A stretch of 64,000 bases of DNA from an uncultured Bacteroidales bacterium (GTDB taxonomy: Bacteria; Bacteroidota; Bacteroidia; Bacteroidales; Muribaculaceae), in assembly GCA_945829225.1 (NCBI GenBank), contig CALZTY010000003.1:41567-105566 (forward strand), read 5' to 3'. Both the position numbers and the translations under genes were made by a program. Shown here in pieces: positions 1-27,184 of this stretch (positions are counted from its first letter, which is position 1; every line of letters starts with the position of its first letter). Under the pieces are notes generated by a model. The model did not search any database. It worked only from the letters and a program-made list of their open reading frames with translations, and was not told where the DNA came from.

Positions 1-886
1 TTAGGAGCTTGTCAGCCTCTGCTTTCAGTTTTTTCGGATTCAACACTTTTAGCTTTTGCAAATTTTGTATCTTCCATTTTACTGAAGGATAATCTTTAAA
101 GGATGAATACGGAAAGTCAGCCCAATTAACAGATAAATCTTCAAAGCCTACGAGAAAGCGCTTGTCTTCTTCCGTCATTACTGAATTGACATCATTGATT
201 AGTTTGTCTCTTGTTTCTTCAAAATCGTTATATGTGAATGGTATCTCACTCATTCCTGAAAATTGACAATCCATTGCTTCGCGCTGGTTGATAAGATTTG
301 GTGCAAACGACTCATAAATAGGGCGGTCACTGCCAAGAAGACAGAATATTAGACCAGCCTTTACGTCAGTCAATGGAATATCCATTTGTTTTATATCAAA
401 AAGATCGCGGGGATGCTGGCGTGACAATGCCGCTGCAATCTTTCCTCCATATAGTTGAGGTATGGACACTATTCTTGCATCTACTTCCATACCGAACAAT
501 TCTTGTGCTTTTTGACACAAAGGACACAGTATAGCATCACCGCAGACAAGACCGCGTTTTGTCTGATTAACCTCAATTTTCACCTGACAGCCACGACTTT
601 CACAAGTGATTTTGCTTATGTCAAAACGTGATATAACTCTCACATCGTGGAATGTACGGTTGATCCTATTGCTGATTCTCTCAAGTGCTTCATTAATATG
701 CAAAAGACTTGTCTTCCTATCTTCTATGGGAATATAAGTTACATCTATATCAACCGAAAGTCGGTATAGATTTTTTACAAACAAATTGATGGCTGTGCCA
801 CCATGAATGGCAAAACACTCTTCATCCGTTACAAACGGTAGGATTCTCAAAAGGAGCGCAACTTTCTGTTTATAAATACTATTCAT
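1..886 (-). CDS. AbiEii/AbiGii-like nucleotidyltransferase toxin, truncated by left window edge
   Basis: Hand translation of the minus strand from ATG at 886 gives MNSIYKQKVALLLRILPFVTDEECFAIHGGTAINLFVKNLYRLSVDIDVTYIP..., with GGTAINLF and DIDVTY motifs of the AbiEii nucleotidyltransferase fold; the frame stays open to base 2. It is absent from the ORF track because it runs off the edge. Confidence 0.85.
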   Translation of the reverse strand, partial: MNSIYKQKVALLLRILPFVTDEECFAIHGGTAINLFVKNLYRLSVDIDVTYIPIEDRKTSLLHINEALERISNRINRTFHDVRVISRFDISKITCESRGCQVKIEVNQTKRGLVCGDAILCPLCQKAQELFGMEVDARIVSIPQLYGGKIAAALSRQHPRDLFDIKQMDIPLTDVKAGLIFCLLGSDRPIYESFAPNLINQREAMDCQFSGMSEIPFTYNDFEETRDKLINDVNSVMTEEDKRFLVGFEDLSVNWADFPYSSFKDYPSVKWKIQNLQKLKVLNPKKLKAEADKLL

Positions 887-1634
887 ATTGAGCAAGCTCT
901 TTGGGTATTACAATATCGTAAGTGCTCACTTTCACTCCACCCTTCGCAATACTCCGAGGTCCGGCTCCGAGGGATATGTGCTTAAGATCGAGTTTAGCGA
1001 ACCAACGATGATGAGCCTTTTCTGCCATATACAGAAATAGCCGCTTGACTTTTACAGAAGTGCAGTTTTCGAGTAGTTGTTGTATAAGTGCGGGCCTAAG
1101 GGATGTAAGCATTTCCATAAGATAATACACATCCATTAAATCGTATCGGGAAGGCGAAAGCAAGATGCACTCCATTATAGCCCTCTCCGGTGAAGAGAAT
1201 GATAATGACTGACTTCGATAATCCATTTGCTCAATACCTACGGTTCCTAATACTTTGGATGATACTTCAACAAGGTTCATATCAAGTTCTATAGTATATA
1301 ACCATTTGGGGAGCCGAGGTCTTACCGGAGAGAATACAATGGCAGTTGGCTTTCCCATCGTTATGTAATGTGAAAATCCTTTTAGTTCCAATGCAGATGC
1401 AGCACCTATATGATATTTAAGTCCAACCTGTTTTTCATACGAAGCCAATATACCATAAAGCGATGGAGTATCTCCGGCAAATTTATATACACCGGTGGAT
1501 ATACGTTGTAACCACTCCGATACCATATAGTCATGTACTTCACTTCTGCTGAAACCGGTTTTTTCGAGCCATGAGGTGAGTAAAATCCCATCGGAAGGGG
1601 TCTGCTGTCGTAATAAGTTTATTTTAGTGCTCAT
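879..1634 (-). CDS. AbiEi-like antitoxin (type IV TA system)
   Basis: N-terminal wHTH and AbiEi-type body (GAASALELKGFSHY...); overlaps the downstream AbiEii start by 8 bp. Confidence 0.8.
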   Translation of the reverse strand: MSTKINLLRQQTPSDGILLTSWLEKTGFSRSEVHDYMVSEWLQRISTGVYKFAGDTPSLYGILASYEKQVGLKYHIGAASALELKGFSHYITMGKPTAIVFSPVRPRLPKWLYTIELDMNLVEVSSKVLGTVGIEQMDYRSQSLSFSSPERAIMECILLSPSRYDLMDVYYLMEMLTSLRPALIQQLLENCTSVKVKRLFLYMAEKAHHRWFAKLDLKHISLGAGPRSIAKGGVKVSTYDIVIPKELAQYE

Positions 1635-4260: not shown

Positions 4261-5610
4261 CTATCTGGTTATGTCATGAGAGAAAACATTTTTCAGCCTG
4301 AATTTGACGACAAATGAAGGCTCACCGATGGGAGAGATTTTTGTAGCGCGGCTACGCGCACCCTCGTCGGGGAGCGGTGGGAATGTGACCGGGTCGATGG
4401 CGGTGAGAGCGGCACGTAGCAGAGGCTCGGTCAACTCGCCGATATGCGAGCGCGAGGTGTCGTAAGTGCCTTCGATGACGATGTCGGGCACCAGCCCGGA
4501 GTCGGGGGTAGTCTCGCCCAAGGCGTTGTAGTATTGCATAGTGATGGGCTGCAATGCCAAGGGGAAGCGCTTGTCTCTCAAGTTGTAAGAGCCGACGCCC
4601 TTACCCACAGTGGTTTCGCCGATCTGCACGACCTCCATATAAGGGCGCATGCACACGATGGCAGCCTCGCTTGCCGAGGCAGTGTGGGTGGAAGTGAGAA
4701 CAAACATGCGCGGCAATTGCAGCGGTTTGGCATCAACGTACTCCAATGGAGTACCGGTGGGATATTCGTAATATGAGTTGCAGAAATCCTCGCCGTAGGC
4801 GGCGGTGCGCTCGGCATTAATGATGTCGTTGTACTCGCAGTGTTGGTAGATGCCGCCGTAGGCATTGGCTGGGAGTATCCAGTTGCCGAGTTCCCGGCAG
4901 GTGCTGACATATCCGCCGGGGTTGTAGCGCAGGTCGAGGACCAACTCGTCGATGTGGTTGACCGAGAAGTAGCAAAGCACCGAGACGATATCCAATGAGG
5001 ATTCAAACTGCAAATAGCACACATAGCCGATGCGCTTGGTGCCGGTGTCGATGATGCTATAATACTGGATAGTCGACGGGGTCTCATCGCCAATCTCGGG
5101 TATACCCTGCAGTGGGGTGTCCACATAGGCGAATATGCCGCCGGCATCGGGGGCGACACGTCGCCCGGTGAAGTGATTGCCACGCACCTCGAGGAAGTCG
5201 CCGCGGCAGATTCCCGCGTCGGCAACACGCTGCGAGGTAATGTACAATACTTGGGCGGCTACGTTGCCGATAAGGTCTTCAAATAGTTGAAATTCAAAGC
5301 CATAGTCTTGCCCTAATAGTTCCGATGAGCCGGTGAACGAGTCGTTGCCGGTGAGAAATGAGAATCGGTCGCGCTTCGAGAGCAATGACTTGAAAAACTC
5401 ATTTGGCGCGAGCGAGTAGTCGCAAGCCAAGGAGTCGGGCATATCGGTGCGCCACAGATAGTGGTGGTTCATTTGACCGTAAGCCCAGCGGTTGAATTGT
5501 GTATCCCTATCTTCGGTCGCAGAGGGCACTGACGGCTCTGCTGAGTCGTCAGTGCAGCCCATAACTGCGACACAAAGAATCGGAATGAAATATTTGAGAG
5601 AGGGTCTCAA
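4261..5610 (-). CDS. S41 family C-terminal-processing peptidase, lipoprotein
   Basis: Lipobox VMGC; S41 signature THTASASEAAIVCMRPYMEVVQIGETTVGKGVGS. Confidence 0.85.
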   Translation of the reverse strand: MRPSLKYFIPILCVAVMGCTDDSAEPSVPSATEDRDTQFNRWAYGQMNHHYLWRTDMPDSLACDYSLAPNEFFKSLLSKRDRFSFLTGNDSFTGSSELLGQDYGFEFQLFEDLIGNVAAQVLYITSQRVADAGICRGDFLEVRGNHFTGRRVAPDAGGIFAYVDTPLQGIPEIGDETPSTIQYYSIIDTGTKRIGYVCYLQFESSLDIVSVLCYFSVNHIDELVLDLRYNPGGYVSTCRELGNWILPANAYGGIYQHCEYNDIINAERTAAYGEDFCNSYYEYPTGTPLEYVDAKPLQLPRMFVLTSTHTASASEAAIVCMRPYMEVVQIGETTVGKGVGSYNLRDKRFPLALQPITMQYYNALGETTPDSGLVPDIVIEGTYDTSRSHIGELTEPLLRAALTAIDPVTFPPLPDEGARSRATKISPIGEPSFVVKFRLKNVFSHDITR

Positions 5611-5626
5611 TTTGTGATTGATTTAG

Positions 5627-6622
5627 TTATTTAGCGATAGGGAGTTCAGCGATGCGGATAGAGCACTCTTCTGCGTTGACAGCCTCGGCATCGAAAGAGG
5701 GCATAGAAGCCTTGCCGGAGATTTTGCCACCACCATAGGTGATCTTGTTGTCGTTTTCTTCGTCGCACAAGTCGATATAGTGGAGGAAGCAGTCACCCTT
5801 ATTTACAGTGTACGAGTATGAATCTGTGGCGAGGAGTTGCTCGTTGGATGATGAATATGCCTCAAAGCGCACCTTGTAATTGGACATTGGGACAATAAAC
5901 TGGTAGTAGTACACATTATCTGCTGATCTGTCATTGGGATCAAAGTAACTATTCCACCAAGCGAAAGCGTTATTGTTGCTTTGGATAGACACTTGAGGAT
6001 CACCGTAAGAGTCGAATGATAAGGAGTCGGCGGTACGGTTAGCAGCGAGACCGAGAGTGGAGATTACATCATAAGTGTGGATGTTAAGGTAGATGGTTGA
6101 GAACATAGCGCCGAAGGGTTCGGGCTCAATCTTCAGGTCATTGTTGCCGGTTTCATTGATGGTGACTGTTCTTACATCCAAGCCCAAGATACCGGCTTGT
6201 AGGCCTAAATATTTAGAGCGAGTAATAGTTGCAGTGCTGAGACGGTCAAATCCACTGAGTTCCCAGAAATGAATGTTTGAAGTTTTTGAGCAGACAACAG
6301 TAATAACCACCGATGTGTAAGAACCTGCCTCAAGGTAGGTGGACTCTTTCACAATTGTCGTATAATTCTTGACATCATTTTGTTGCTCAAACACCTTATT
6401 GCCGTTTTCGTCATAGAGATAGTGATGTACTTCAAGGACTTCGGTTGAAGACAAAGTTTCTAAGTCACCGGAAACGACTTCGGCGGGAAGCAGCGGGGTG
6501 ATAACGGTGTTGGGGTTGATGGAGAAGTTGACTGCCTGTTCGGTGGGTTCGTCATCGCCACCGCAGGCGGTGAAAGAGATAGCACCGGCTAAGCCGAGCA
6601 AAAGGAATAGATACTTTTTCAT
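5627..6622 (-). CDS. Lipoprotein of unknown function
   Basis: MKKYLFLLLGLAGAISFTACGGDDE lipoprotein signal; tight spacing with flanking minus-strand genes. Confidence 0.7.
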   Translation of the reverse strand: MKKYLFLLLGLAGAISFTACGGDDEPTEQAVNFSINPNTVITPLLPAEVVSGDLETLSSTEVLEVHHYLYDENGNKVFEQQNDVKNYTTIVKESTYLEAGSYTSVVITVVCSKTSNIHFWELSGFDRLSTATITRSKYLGLQAGILGLDVRTVTINETGNNDLKIEPEPFGAMFSTIYLNIHTYDVISTLGLAANRTADSLSFDSYGDPQVSIQSNNNAFAWWNSYFDPNDRSADNVYYYQFIVPMSNYKVRFEAYSSSNEQLLATDSYSYTVNKGDCFLHYIDLCDEENDNKITYGGGKISGKASMPSFDAEAVNAEECSIRIAELPIAK

Positions 6623-6630
6623 AGAATTAA

Positions 6631-7287
6631 TTATTTAACGGCTGTGAAGTAGTAGCCGAGGTTAATAGATACAGTGCTTACAGTTGTAGCGATATTCTTG
6701 TGCAAATCGCTGGTGCCGAGGTTGTAGTGCACGCCGAAGTGGAAACCGCTCGGGCGAACAACGCTCAAGCCGAAGGAGAACTTGACGTCGGTAGCGGAGA
6801 TATCCTTGATGCGCTTGCCGTTGGGAAGGTCAAGTTGCTTGGGCGATGAGGAGAATGCGCCGGTGAATGTGGGACCGAGCTCAACAGCGAGGGTGGGGAC
6901 TACATACCACTGGAGCCATACGGGCACCTCATAGCAGTTGAGGGTGATGTTGTCGACATCATTGTTAACGCCGTATTGAGCGTAGTGGATGGCTGCTTTG
7001 ATACCGAAGCGCTCGGTGCCGAAGGGGCGACCGGCGGGGCGACCGAAGCGCACGTTGGCAGCGAGACCGGCGTGGAAGCCGATGGTGCCGCTTGTGCCAA
7101 TCTTCAAGCCGTCGGGCTCGCTTACTACAGAATAGTTACCACCTACTTCGGGACCGATGAGGAGTGCCCAAGGCCGCAGTACCTCGGCATCTTCATCGCT
7201 GTTGTTGCTTGAGCCAAAGCCCTGAGCATTGCTCAGCATTGCTGTACTTGCAATCAATGCGATTGAGAGGAAAAGTTTCTTAAACAT
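6631..7287 (-). CDS. Outer-membrane beta-barrel protein (porin-like)
   Basis: Signal peptide, alternating beta pattern (LLIGPEVGGNYSVV..., GFHAGLAANVRFG), C-terminal aromatic-rich strand VSINLGYYFTAVK. Confidence 0.75.
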   Translation of the reverse strand: MFKKLFLSIALIASTAMLSNAQGFGSSNNSDEDAEVLRPWALLIGPEVGGNYSVVSEPDGLKIGTSGTIGFHAGLAANVRFGRPAGRPFGTERFGIKAAIHYAQYGVNNDVDNITLNCYEVPVWLQWYVVPTLAVELGPTFTGAFSSSPKQLDLPNGKRIKDISATDVKFSFGLSVVRPSGFHFGVHYNLGTSDLHKNIATTVSTVSINLGYYFTAVK

Positions 7288-7307
7288 AACAATTTATTTA
7301 GGGGTGA

Positions 7308-8822
7308 TTAAAAATATTTCTGGAATTGTAGTTCAGCCGAGGCGCGCTCGCCGGTGTTGAGCGAGATGGTCACTGTGGAGGTGAAGCTGTCGGCAACATG
7401 CTGACGCAGAGTGATGTCGCGGCTGGAGAATGCGGGGATGGTAATCGAGACGCGAGTGAAGTTGTCAGTAGTGGCTACGCGGAGGGTGGCTACTACGGTG
7501 ACCGGCTTGGCAGAGTCGTTGTGGATGGTGGCGGCGACAGTCTGATAGTCATCGGCATCGGCGCGGACCGATGTGAGGCGCGGGCGGTCAACACGCAGCA
7601 CGATGGGATATTCGACGGTAAATGTTTGATTGGTAGTCTTGACCAACACACCGTTGTTATATATGCTCATTGTCATAGAGCACGACGAGGCTTGGTCGGC
7701 AAACTCGGCTTTGAATGAGCCGGCAATTGCCGACAGCGAGTTGAGCAAGTGAGCGGTAATCTCGCGGCGATTGCCGTCGCCGGCATCTACAAAGACGCGA
7801 ATGAGGCGATTGTCGACACCCGAGGACAGGCTGATATTGTATTTCACCGGCGAAGCGTTGCCCGAGCGGTCAACCACGATGGAGCCGTTGTCGTCGGTGT
7901 CGAGGCTGATGTTGATGTCGCCGTTGACGATGCCGATGATGCCATATAGACCATTGTATGAGACAATAGCAGTGTTGTCGCTGAAGAATGTGGGAGCGGC
8001 GTCGAAGGCATATCCGGTGATTGCGGAGCCGTTGTACAAGATGTTGTACAGCCCGGCGGAGGCTTCGGAACGGAAGACCGTCGAGGTCGACCACGAATGG
8101 CTATCCTCGTTGGGAATGGCATTATACTTGTTGCGGATATTCTTTGCCTCGCTCTCGTTGAGTTTGCAAATGACATTGCCACCGGTGTTGATGAGGGCGA
8201 AGTCCTTGTTGTAGGCGATTACGGCTTGACCGTTGTTGAAGCAACTTGCCGAGGTCATGTCGCCGAAGTGGAAGTTTACGGCGAGGGTGCCGCGCCCGGC
8301 ATTATTGTCGTAGTTGCGGTTGACATACTTGCGCAAGCGCCCGTCCTTGACCGATGCCCAGCCCTCCTTGAAGGGTAAGCCGTCGTCAAATTGGCAGCGG
8401 ATGACCTCATTGCCCTTGACGTCGATATATCCCACCTTGCTATTGGCGTTGGCGACGCACAGCAGCCCGTCGGAAACAAAGGGGTGGGCGGTATCGACAT
8501 AGTATTTGCGCGAAATGGTATAAATGGTGCCGTCGTCGCTGATAATCTTGTTAATAACTGCAGACTCGTTTGTGCCGGTGCACACCAGCGAGTAGCCATT
8601 GATAAATGGGGTGATGAAGTCATAGGTGGGACTGAGCAACACCTCGCCGGAGGTACTCACGAGCCCGTATTTGCCGTTTTTCTCAACAATGAAACTATTA
8701 TCACCGTGGCGTTGTATATTACTATATGTGGGGAGGATTTCCCACGCGATGGTCTTGCTATGGCACACAAAGCCCATAGCAAACGACATAAAGATAAGGA
8801 ACAGATACTTAGACGCTTTCAT
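7308..8822 (-). CDS. WG-repeat-containing secreted protein
   Basis: Start trimmed to MKASKYLFLIFMSFAMGF (signal peptide) because the ORF-track start at 8936 overlaps the kinase gene; repeats such as FIVEKNGKYGLVSTSGEVLLSPTYDFITPF and GLLCVANANSKVGYIDVKGNEVI. Confidence 0.8.
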   Translation of the reverse strand: MKASKYLFLIFMSFAMGFVCHSKTIAWEILPTYSNIQRHGDNSFIVEKNGKYGLVSTSGEVLLSPTYDFITPFINGYSLVCTGTNESAVINKIISDDGTIYTISRKYYVDTAHPFVSDGLLCVANANSKVGYIDVKGNEVIRCQFDDGLPFKEGWASVKDGRLRKYVNRNYDNNAGRGTLAVNFHFGDMTSASCFNNGQAVIAYNKDFALINTGGNVICKLNESEAKNIRNKYNAIPNEDSHSWSTSTVFRSEASAGLYNILYNGSAITGYAFDAAPTFFSDNTAIVSYNGLYGIIGIVNGDINISLDTDDNGSIVVDRSGNASPVKYNISLSSGVDNRLIRVFVDAGDGNRREITAHLLNSLSAIAGSFKAEFADQASSCSMTMSIYNNGVLVKTTNQTFTVEYPIVLRVDRPRLTSVRADADDYQTVAATIHNDSAKPVTVVATLRVATTDNFTRVSITIPAFSSRDITLRQHVADSFTSTVTISLNTGERASAELQFQKYF

Positions 8823-8856
8823 ATGTAGAGAGGGGGAGAGAGTTCGGGTTTTATGG

Positions 8857-10446
8857 TTAGTTAATATTTGACATACGGCTTGAGGCGGCATTGGCATATA
8901 CCGAGTTGCCGGCTTGTTGAGCCGCTCGATATGCACGGTTTAGGTAATCTTTGGCGCGATTGAGATCGCGAGTGACACCGCGGCGATTGGATTTATAGTC
9001 GCAACCTAATTCGAAGAGAGCGCGATAGTTATTCGGTTGTATTTGGACTACACGCATCAACAATTGGTGGGCGCGCGAGTTGTTGACGGGTATGGTGATA
9101 TTGCGGCGAATAGTCGAGATGGTGTCGCATAGGGGCGCCAGGGCGACATTGTCGTTGCTACTGAAAGATAGGCGCGAGAGCATGAACATAGCATCGGGGT
9201 TGCCATTGTTGGCGAGAGTTGTTAACTCATCGAGACCGCTTTGTGCCGTGGATTTACTCATAAGTTTGTTCATGGCATTGCGGTAGTTGTATGTGTTGAT
9301 GAGCTCGGGGTCGGCATCGTCATATTCATCTGACGTTATTTCGATTTCATCTTCCACGTCAACATCAATGATTGTGTGAGAGCCACGGTTGTCGGTGAGT
9401 TTGAGGATTGCAAATGTGGCGATACCCACAACGATGCAACCAACCAAAGCCATGATGACGGTTTTTGTCGAGTTGCCGCTACTCTTGACGTGGCGCTTGC
9501 CGTTGCTTGCCGCCATAGTGAGTTGAGCGAGGGCATCGAGCATCTCTTGGGCGCTCTGATAGCGCTTCTTGAACTCCTTGAATGTAGCCTTGGCGATAAT
9601 CTTGCGGATACCGCGATTGGATATTTCGGAGATTGGCATAGGCTCATCGACTTGCTTCTGCAGGATTTCGTAGAGCTCGCCTTCGAAGGGGAGATGCCCG
9701 GTGCAGAGTTGGAAGAGGAGGATACCGACGGCATAGATATCGGTGGGCGGTCGTTGGTCATCGAGCAATCCGCGCACCAACTCCGGGGCGGCATATCGAG
9801 GCTTGCCGACGAAGCCACCGGGCATGGTGAGTTGGTTGCCATCGTCGTTGTTGCCGGCAAATTTGCGAGCAATGCCCAGGTCAATAAGTTTAATGATGCC
9901 GTTTTCGCTGATGATGATGTTGGAGGGGTCGATGTCGCGATGGATATATCCACATTGATGCAGGACCTTGAGCGCCTCGAGGACACCACCAACGATAGTC
10001 ATGGCGAAGTCTTCGCGGTTGGACTGATATAGGTCGTAAAGTTCCTGAGCGAGGGGAACAATATTGCCCGAGTCATCGACGAGGTCGCCGCGGAGGAGGC
10101 TCTTGAGCGAGACGCCCGAGACGTATTCGCTGATGACGTAGTATCTGGCGATTGAGTGTCCCGAGGGGGTGCGAGTGGGTTGCTCGATGAAGTCGAGCAT
10201 CTCGATGACGTTCTCGTTATGGATCACCATTGCCGCTTCACGGCGCGAGCGGGCGATGATAGAGGTAGGGACATCGTCATGGAGGATTTTGATGGCTACC
10301 TTGCGACAGGCGCCATTGCTCTCGTTGTAGCAATAGCCTCGATACACGATGCCGGTGCCACCAAGCCCTATAGGAGCATCGGTGTCATCGTACTCATAGT
10401 AAACGCCACGTCGGGCAGAAGACCCTTGTAACCTAATCTTTGCCAT
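8857..10446 (-). CDS. Hanks-type Ser/Thr protein kinase with TM segment and C-terminal TPR/Sel1-like region
   Basis: Glycine loop IGLGGTGIVYRG, VAIKIL, YIHRDIDPSNIIISENGIIKLIDLG, APELVRG, DIYAVGILLFQLCTG; TM VIMALVGCIVVGIATFAIL. Confidence 0.9.
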   Translation of the reverse strand: MAKIRLQGSSARRGVYYEYDDTDAPIGLGGTGIVYRGYCYNESNGACRKVAIKILHDDVPTSIIARSRREAAMVIHNENVIEMLDFIEQPTRTPSGHSIARYYVISEYVSGVSLKSLLRGDLVDDSGNIVPLAQELYDLYQSNREDFAMTIVGGVLEALKVLHQCGYIHRDIDPSNIIISENGIIKLIDLGIARKFAGNNDDGNQLTMPGGFVGKPRYAAPELVRGLLDDQRPPTDIYAVGILLFQLCTGHLPFEGELYEILQKQVDEPMPISEISNRGIRKIIAKATFKEFKKRYQSAQEMLDALAQLTMAASNGKRHVKSSGNSTKTVIMALVGCIVVGIATFAILKLTDNRGSHTIIDVDVEDEIEITSDEYDDADPELINTYNYRNAMNKLMSKSTAQSGLDELTTLANNGNPDAMFMLSRLSFSSNDNVALAPLCDTISTIRRNITIPVNNSRAHQLLMRVVQIQPNNYRALFELGCDYKSNRRGVTRDLNRAKDYLNRAYRAAQQAGNSVYANAASSRMSNIN

Positions 10447-10482
10447 TGTTTTAACTGATAAAAGAGCATGTCCCCATCACGG

Positions 10483-10503
10483 TCTCTTATTAAGAGATTG
10501 TGA
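10483..10503 (+). repeat. Left arm of 21-bp perfect inverted repeat
   Basis: tctcttattaagagattgtga, exact reverse complement of 10776-10796. Confidence 0.95.
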
Positions 10504-10735
10504 CTGTAGCCTAACATTCTGATTTTGTATTTATTAGCCTATGGCAAAAATGGACAATTGCTAAACAAGTGGCACTCGATTAGATTACAATGAAGATTAA
10601 TAACAAATTTTATAGTGATTAAAGGATGTGAAAATTCTGAATGTGTAACTGTGCTTATTACGTTGATTATCAATATTATAAGCCTATCACTGATGACATT
10701 TTGACTTTAAAATTTAAATTTTAAGCGCAAAAATA

Positions 10736-10765
10736 TTTGTATAATTAATATTTTTTGTACCTTTG
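10736..10765 (+). promoter_or_regulatory. Bacteroidetes-type promoter inside the inverted-repeat-bounded segment
   Basis: TTTG (10736-10739), 18-bp spacer, TACCTTTG (10758-10765), matching the -33 TTTG / -7 TAnnTTTG consensus. Confidence 0.7.
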
Positions 10766-10775
10766 TGGCACCGAA

Positions 10776-10796
10776 TCACAATCTCTTAATAAGAGA
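10776..10796 (-). repeat. Right arm of 21-bp perfect inverted repeat
   Basis: tcacaatctcttaataagaga, exact reverse complement of 10483-10503. Confidence 0.95.
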
Positions 10797-10817
10797 TTTA
10801 AAAGGTGTAAAATGAAT

Positions 10818-10854
10818 TGCCATCGGAAATGGAAAAATTCCGGCGGCATTTTTT
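10818..10854 (+). terminator. Intrinsic terminator just outside the right inverted repeat
   Basis: tgccatcggaa / ttccggcggca stem (one mismatch, one GU), 9-nt loop, followed by TTTTTT. Confidence 0.7.
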
Positions 10855-10912
10855 ATTTGCCTTTGTGGGCAAAATAGTGGCGGTGACAGGGGTGATATGT
10901 CGCGGAATTGTT

Positions 10913-10920
10913 GTAATTTT
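10913..10920 (+). promoter_or_regulatory. Candidate -7 element for the downstream methyltransferase
   Basis: TAATTTTG matches TAnnTTTG, 28 bp before the ATG at 10948. Confidence 0.45.
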
Positions 10921-10947
10921 GCACAAAATAAACGACAATCCTCATTT

Positions 10948-12363
10948 ATGGAGAATACATTTGAAATGGTGGCTAAGACCTTCCAGGGGCTGGAGGACGT
11001 ACTTGCCGAAGAATTGCGCCAATTGGGCGCGGAAAATATTGAAGCAGGACGACGAATGGTGTCATTCCGAGGCGATAAAGAATTGTTGTATCGCGCTAAT
11101 CTGAGTTGTCGCACCGCCCTGCGCATCCTCAAACCCTTCTACACCTTCAAGGCTGCCAATCCCGACCAACTATATGAGCAGGTCAAGGAGTATGATTGGG
11201 GCTCAATGCTCACTTTAGACAAGACTTTTTCGATAGATACCGTAGCCAATAGCGATGAATTCACGCACTCGCGCTATGCGACATATCGCGTGAAAGATGC
11301 AATAGTCGATTGGTTCAAAGACCGTTACGGCGAGGATAAGCGCCCGGGTGTTCGCTTGGTCGATGCCGATATGATGGTGAATGTGCATATCAACGGTACC
11401 ACGGTGACCCTGTCGCTGGACTCGTCGGGCGAGTCGTTGCACAAGCGCGGCTACCGCGTGGCGCAGACCGAGGCACCCATCAACGAGGTGCTTGCCGCCG
11501 GTATCATTCTGCGTAGCGGTTGGCGAGGCGAGACTCCCTTGGTCGACCCCATGTGTGGCTCGGGTACCTTCCTCATTGAGGCAGCGCTCATAGCCGCAAA
11601 TATCACCCCAGGTATCTATCGCCGCGGCTTTGCCTTTGAGCGCTGGAAAGACTTCGATGCCGACCTCTTCGACCGCCTGTACAACGACGACAGCGGCGAG
11701 CGCGAGGTGGCTCACAAGATTTATGGCGCCGACATCTCGCCCAAGGCTATCAAGATTGCCGAGGAAAATATCAAGAGCGCCGGCGTCGCCAAGTATATAA
11801 AATTGGAATGTAAGCCCTTGTCGGCATGGACCGAGGCACCCAAGCCCGATGGTGTGCTGGTCACTAATCCTCCCTATGGCGAGCGTATCAGCGCTCCGGA
11901 TATGGATGCGCTGTATCAGTTGATAGGCTCGCAACTCAAGCATGTGTTTGTGGGTTATCACGCATGGATTATCGGCTATCGCGATGAGCACTTCCAGCGC
12001 ATCGGATTGGCGCCGAGCACCAAGGTGCCCATGTACAACGGCGCATTGGAGTGCTCGTTGCGCGAGTATGTGATTTTTGCCGGCGACCGCAAGAGTTATG
12101 TGCGCGGCGGAGGCAAGATTGGTCGTGGCGAGGCTCGCAAGGAGCGCTCACCGCGCGACAAGAAAGAGCGCCGCGATGTGCGTGCCGGCAAGCCGACACG
12201 TCGCCGTGCCGAGGAGGCTCCCACCTTTGAGCCGGATAGCGAGAACCCGCTCGCCAAGCGTCGCAACCCCGCAGCCCTCAAGATGCTTGTGGGCAAGCAA
12301 CCCTCGCTCAAGCCTATGGAGGGTCCGATGATGCGCTCGCGCGGCTGGAAAAAGAAATCTTAA
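10948..12363 (+). CDS. THUMP-domain class I SAM-dependent RNA methyltransferase (RlmL/Trm14-like)
   Basis: MENTFEMVAKTFQGLEDVLAEELRQLGAENI; DPMCGSGTFLIEAALIAANI; VTNPPYGERI. Confidence 0.85.
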   Translation: MENTFEMVAKTFQGLEDVLAEELRQLGAENIEAGRRMVSFRGDKELLYRANLSCRTALRILKPFYTFKAANPDQLYEQVKEYDWGSMLTLDKTFSIDTVANSDEFTHSRYATYRVKDAIVDWFKDRYGEDKRPGVRLVDADMMVNVHINGTTVTLSLDSSGESLHKRGYRVAQTEAPINEVLAAGIILRSGWRGETPLVDPMCGSGTFLIEAALIAANITPGIYRRGFAFERWKDFDADLFDRLYNDDSGEREVAHKIYGADISPKAIKIAEENIKSAGVAKYIKLECKPLSAWTEAPKPDGVLVTNPPYGERISAPDMDALYQLIGSQLKHVFVGYHAWIIGYRDEHFQRIGLAPSTKVPMYNGALECSLREYVIFAGDRKSYVRGGGKIGRGEARKERSPRDKKERRDVRAGKPTRRRAEEAPTFEPDSENPLAKRRNPAALKMLVGKQPSLKPMEGPMMRSRGWKKKS

Positions 12364-27086: not shown

Positions 27087-27184
27087 AAATTGAAAATCTT
27101 GGGAGTGATAGCTGTAAAATTCCTAAGATTTTCAATGTAAAATTCCCAAAATTTTCAATAAAAAATTCCCAAGATTTTCAATTT
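27087..27184. repeat. Short repeat cluster: three 21-bp direct copies at 23-bp period plus one inverted copy
   Basis: aaaattcc(c/t)aa(g/a)attttcaat at 27116, 27139, 27162; aaattgaaaatcttggga (27087-27104) is the exact reverse complement of 27167-27184. Confidence 0.93.

Follow-up and report, generated by a model that had tools for sequence, protein, structure and literature searches.

We found that a stretch of 314 bp in the genome of a gut member of the Bacteroidales, including both arms of a perfect inverted repeat, is very probably a flipping segment by which a kinase operon would be turned on and off. It lies in the window, that is, the whole 64-kb stretch of DNA analysed here (G000:C3:41567-105566, from a source assembly of 2.27 Mb in 85 contigs). 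On the sequence evidence, it is highly likely to be an invertible promoter that, in one orientation, would switch ON an operon of kinase, WG-repeat, beta-barrel, lipoprotein and S41 peptidase genes, with a recombinase encoded on contig C45 probably acting in trans. As for the broader hypothesis, that operons of eukaryotic-like Ser/Thr kinases and FHA/PP2C proteins have come repeatedly under phase-variable promoters by way of a single recombinase-and-site family found across Bacteroidales, the window being a case in trans at a kinase-led envelope operon, we lean slightly towards it. If true, whole phosphorylation circuits would be switched per cell through DNA inversion.

The original prediction had pointed to a 21-bp perfect inverted repeat, and this was confirmed: TCTCTTATTAAGAGATTGTGA (10483-10503) recurs as its exact reverse complement at 10776-10796, the interior being 272 bp long. 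This repeat is the longest inverted repeat at a spacing of 60-500 bp in the whole 64-kb window. The earlier view that it is unlikely to have arisen by chance also held, as 30 first-order Markov sequences of the window length gave inverted repeats of 15 bp at most, and no match to the 21-mer was found in dinucleotide shuffles. The arms are near-palindromic, as had been noted, each forming a palindrome around a 3-bp centre (TCACGGTCTCTTATTAAGAGATTGTGA on the left and AATCTCTTAATAAGAGATT on the right). The putative functional site is better taken as the two 17-mers given in Table 1, which lie 299 bp apart from start to start, and whose core pair, ATT/AAT, is matched between the arms as expected of a tyrosine-recombinase overlap. 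Elsewhere in the window, we observed an 18-bp perfect inverted repeat with its arms 62 bp apart (27087-27104 and 27167-27184), which belongs to an intergenic cluster of AAATTTTCAA-type repeats that resemble one another and is unlike the switch sites, and a gene for an AbiEi-type antitoxin regulator (882-1634, minus strand).

Table 1. Features of the predicted switch and of its flanks (window coordinates).
Feature	Position	Strand	Remarks
Left recombination site (predicted)	10482..10498	.	GTCTCTT-ATT-AAGAGAT; inside a 27-bp near-palindrome, 10477-10503
Right recombination site (predicted)	10781..10797	.	ATCTCTT-AAT-AAGAGAT; core is the inverse complement of the left core
Invertible segment (predicted)	10499..10780	.	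AT-rich, non-coding; no ORF of >=80 aa inside
Bacteroidetes-type promoter TTTG-18-TACCTTTG	10736..10765	+	15 bp between the end of the -7 box and the right site
Ser/Thr protein kinase, 529 aa	8857..10446	-	Pfam PF00069; expected first gene of the switched operon
Probable rest of operon	4261..8936	-	WG-repeat protein, weak outer-membrane beta-barrel match, weak lipoprotein match, S41 peptidase
Terminator-like hairpin, then T run	10818..10855	+	between the right site and rlmL; fold z-score -2.66
rlmL-type rRNA methyltransferase gene	10948..12363	+	Pfam; start inferred from sequence

The segment carries, by sequence, one outward-pointing promoter at one inner edge, and its predicted elements were verified (TTTG at 10736-10739, an 18-bp spacer, and TACCTTTG at 10758-10765). 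In the proposed mechanism, a tyrosine recombinase would bind two ATCTCTT/AAGAGAT half-sites in each arm, strands would be exchanged in a centre of about 5-7 bp, where a match between the arms would be required, and the segment would flip. After a flip, the promoter was predicted to lie on the minus strand in front of the kinase ATG (10446), and the sequence bears this out, with no gene in between; in that orientation, the promoter would drive the kinase-to-S41 genes, which are probably co-transcribed, being tightly spaced on a common strand. The assembled orientation reads as kinase OFF, the promoter being directed away from the kinase and towards rlmL. Here the outward transcript would probably be halted before rlmL by the hairpin, which was absent from the output of a simple terminator scanner. 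A promoter of its own may also precede rlmL (TAATTTTG at 10914-10921). Given this hairpin and this possible promoter, a flip is not expected to abolish rlmL expression, and a reciprocal rlmL/kinase switch is unlikely.

We found that the arms, judged by their sequence, are one instance of a site, ATCTCTT-NNN-AAGAGAT, which is present in inverted pairs across Bacteroidales. A search with ATCTCTTNNNAAGAGAT, allowing up to 1 mismatch, detected sites in 39 of the 49 genomes of the genus, often as inverted pairs, and a control search of the same genomes with the reversed pattern was nearly empty. A scan of GTDB genomes for pairs of sites at a distance of 145-175 bp, in which both centres could have any sequence, gave at least 115 distinct pairs. 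The pairs listed come mainly from Bacteroidales-labelled records (Phocaeicola, Muribaculaceae, Prevotella, Dysgonomonas and others) and include a few from clostridial-named MAGs. Of these MAGs, at least JAMPBQ010000001.1 shares its sites with G035:C11, a relative in the genus. No site pairs were found in viral contigs. Among the matches listed, the 3-bp centres were inverse complements in 115/115 distinct pairs and fell into 22 types, although some pairs are paralogous, notably those of P. massiliensis and P. faecalis, and therefore not all are independent. With mismatches allowed, the central positions agreed between the arms and the outer positions could differ, such that about 5 bp co-vary, as expected for the overlap region of a tyrosine recombinase; where centres in this list failed to match, the two sites mostly came from different switches of a neighbouring tandem, or the second site was a weak one. 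Tandem neighbouring switches were observed at L194, L214 and L239, where the site pairs have different cores, as if preventing cross-recombination.

Of the 115 listed pairs, 106 have a TAnnTTTG box near one inner edge, at a distance of 8-20 bp, and in 95 of those 106 the -7 box was at 13-15 bp, as compared with 15 bp in the window. None of the 115 had an edge promoter at both inner edges, and the outside control gave 1/115. At 299 bp, the spacing in the window is larger than that of most pairs (163-192 bp, a range that reflects the search pattern), and spacings of 234 and 252 bp are also present. The source genome also has a solitary exact 15-bp site whose ATT core is that found in the window (G000:C35:9617-9631; L037 1501-1515, L099), with a promoter, TTTG-18-TAAATTTG by our reading, about 12 bp away and aimed at a Listeria-Bacteroides repeat protein gene. 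No partner arm was found for this site, which is perhaps a decayed or locked switch.

The sites are linked to a family of tyrosine recombinases. Of 28 family members within 1.5 kb of a pair, 26 have their 3' end towards the switch, often at a distance of 11-43 bp. Of 30 recombinase loci of the genus, 12 have a site (up to 2 mismatches) beyond the 3' end of the gene and none has one beyond the 5' end. The catalytic residues R, K, R, H and Y are invariant in eight aligned members. The window was said to contain no recombinase, and indeed the six tyrosine and one serine recombinase domains of the genome are all on other contigs. The genome-wide search that had been proposed, for further sites and recombinases, yielded one family recombinase beside a site on C45 and a site pair on C70. 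The former, G000:C45:145-1347, is the only family member of the source genome at E 1e-30; it encodes 401 aa with Arm-DNA-bind_5, Phage_int_SAM_5 and Phage_integrase domains (PF13102 + PF00589 + PF17293) and has intact catalytic residues (R249, K275, R348, H371 and Y380). The gene adjoins a matching site that is common to a UpxY capsule switch of the same genome, and its own site departs from the window site just outside the common TCTCTTNNNAAGAGA. We infer that this enzyme probably flips the window switch in trans. A site with one and the same centre (TGT/ACA) marks the end of contig C37 and the starts of C45 and C70, which have about 55 bp in common there; C70 also has a complete small switch in front of a UpxY gene. 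These shared ends suggest an assembly break at recombining sites, which is compatible with mixed orientations.

Direct sequence evidence of flipping at such sites was found in another genome, the roe-deer MAG RGIG4567, in which a locus is duplicated (L174 and L208): the two copies are collinear on either side of the segment, which is itself aligned on the opposite strand, site to site, with 87% identity over 188 bp. Most other homologous pairs with shared flanks have the same orientation. When the other genomes of the genus were searched for the locus of the window, to compare orientations, none had it.

We examined the genes behind such switches. A hand-picked sample of 58 downstream genes, in which some matches fall below curated cut-offs, included 15 of the UpxY family, 6 AraC-type regulators and 4 SusC/RagA genes. 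At L254 and L203, the genes next to the switches are of the type ISP restriction-modification and DUF4007 kinds. In four other genomes, a homologue of the window kinase follows a switch of this family, in three of them with an adjacent recombinase, one of which is broken. At L252, the switch is followed by FHA, kinase and kinase genes, and the kinase is 44% identical to the window kinase over its full length. At G013/L264, a recombinase adjoins the switch, which is followed by genes for FHA, two kinases, PP2C and FHA proteins; at G286/L284, a recombinase adjoins a diverged switch, followed by FHA-like and kinase genes; and at G307/L288-L291, the switch is followed by FHA-like, kinase and PP2C-like genes, where, for L284 and L288, FHA and PP2C are named by resemblance to annotated homologues. 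In the last of these genomes, the adjoining family recombinase gene is split by a transposase gene (IS; L291 4793-7111). A further locus, G003/L114, has a recombinase, a switch and an FHA/kinase operon, the kinase being more distant from that of the window. By our reading, the promoters of the window, L252, L264 and L284 point away from the kinase operon and that of G307 (L288) towards it. No such inverted repeat was found in six other homologous-kinase regions (L265, L285, L286, L287, L289 and L290) by a search that needs long exact arms and can miss diverged sites, one version having missed L264 with its 5-bp centre; the link between kinase and switch is therefore frequent but not universal.

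Taken together, the core match in 115/115 listed pairs, the single edge promoter, the recombinase linkage, the UpxY capsule genes as the usual targets and the inverted duplicate L174/L208 support the invertible promoter of the original prediction. A different explanation is that the palindromes are operators of a dimeric regulator for the divergent kinase and rlmL genes and that no inversion takes place. This would fit the near-perfect palindrome of each arm, the position of the right arm just beyond the expected transcript start, and the lone copy beside another promoter at G000:C35:9617. However, an operator gives no reason for asymmetric centres that are inverse-complementary within every listed pair and yet vary between pairs, and it leaves the recombinase linkage and the inverted duplicate unexplained. 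Since all 115 listed pairs matched across 22 centres, the sites are those expected of site-specific recombination rather than of a regulator; on this core-matching test we rejected the operator explanation, which we regard as extremely unlikely.

It is also very unlikely that the window copy is a former invertible promoter, now locked OFF because its cognate enzyme has been lost or is inactive on it. The missing adjacent recombinase, the unusual spacing and the single orientation seen would agree with such a state, but the 21-bp arm identity has been retained, core included, and the genome encodes an intact family member with its catalytic residues. A working switch flipped by a recombinase other than that of C45, which is a variant of our preferred explanation, is unlikely: the genome has six tyrosine and one serine recombinase domains to choose from, but the C45 enzyme alone is a member of the site-linked family at E 1e-30, and an adjoining site was seen for no other. 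Serine recombinases exchange strands at 2 bp, whereas about 5 bp co-vary here. The locus does not fit a serine inversion system of the Mpi type on this ground, and the site-linked enzymes are tyrosine recombinases. We thus prefer the hypothesis of an invertible promoter flipped in trans, probably by the C45 enzyme, with a consequent effect on expression of the kinase operon.

This kind of switch is already known; what is new is its target and an explicit site rule. We found no reports, in the open-access literature, of invertible promoters before Ser/Thr kinase or FHA operons, and a kinase operon is apparently unreported as an inverton target; nor did we find a relevant publication that prints the site sequence. 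A single inverted repeat has led to a testable rule, of a matched variable core and one recombinase family, by which many phase-variable loci would be predictable from sequence, and protein-phosphorylation operons would join capsules and surface proteins among the targets of such switches.

The window locus would work like a Bacteroidales invertible promoter and has the features of one that can be judged from sequence, with perfect inverted repeats a few hundred bp apart. Mpi of B. fragilis is a serine invertase and the master enzyme for several promoters; the proposed window switch resembles this system in that one enzyme would serve several promoters, in contrast to which its candidate enzyme is a tyrosine recombinase and its cores co-vary over about 5 bp. 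The invertible promoters of Bacteroidales UpxY capsule loci have, like the window, inverted repeats and a Bacteroidetes promoter at one edge, but a recombinase gene often adjoins them, whereas in the window the recombinase is not adjacent and the target is a Ser/Thr kinase operon. For Phocaeicola vulgatus (e.g. CL10), PCR has demonstrated that such a UpxY promoter inverts (PMC13114119). The site family of the window occurs at five loci in P. vulgatus ATCC 8482, among the matches listed, and also before UpxY-matching genes. Inverton groups have been tied to invertase groups (PMC11892184), and in Bacteroides fragilis one tyrosine recombinase, Tsr19 (BF2766), inverts two promoters, IVp-I and IVp-II, in trans, one of them local and the other distant (PMC4747536). 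The proposed window switch is likened to the latter system in flipping in trans and in affecting surface operons; the kinase of the Tsr19 system, however, is a tyrosine kinase inside a polysaccharide operon, whereas that of the window is a Ser/Thr kinase.
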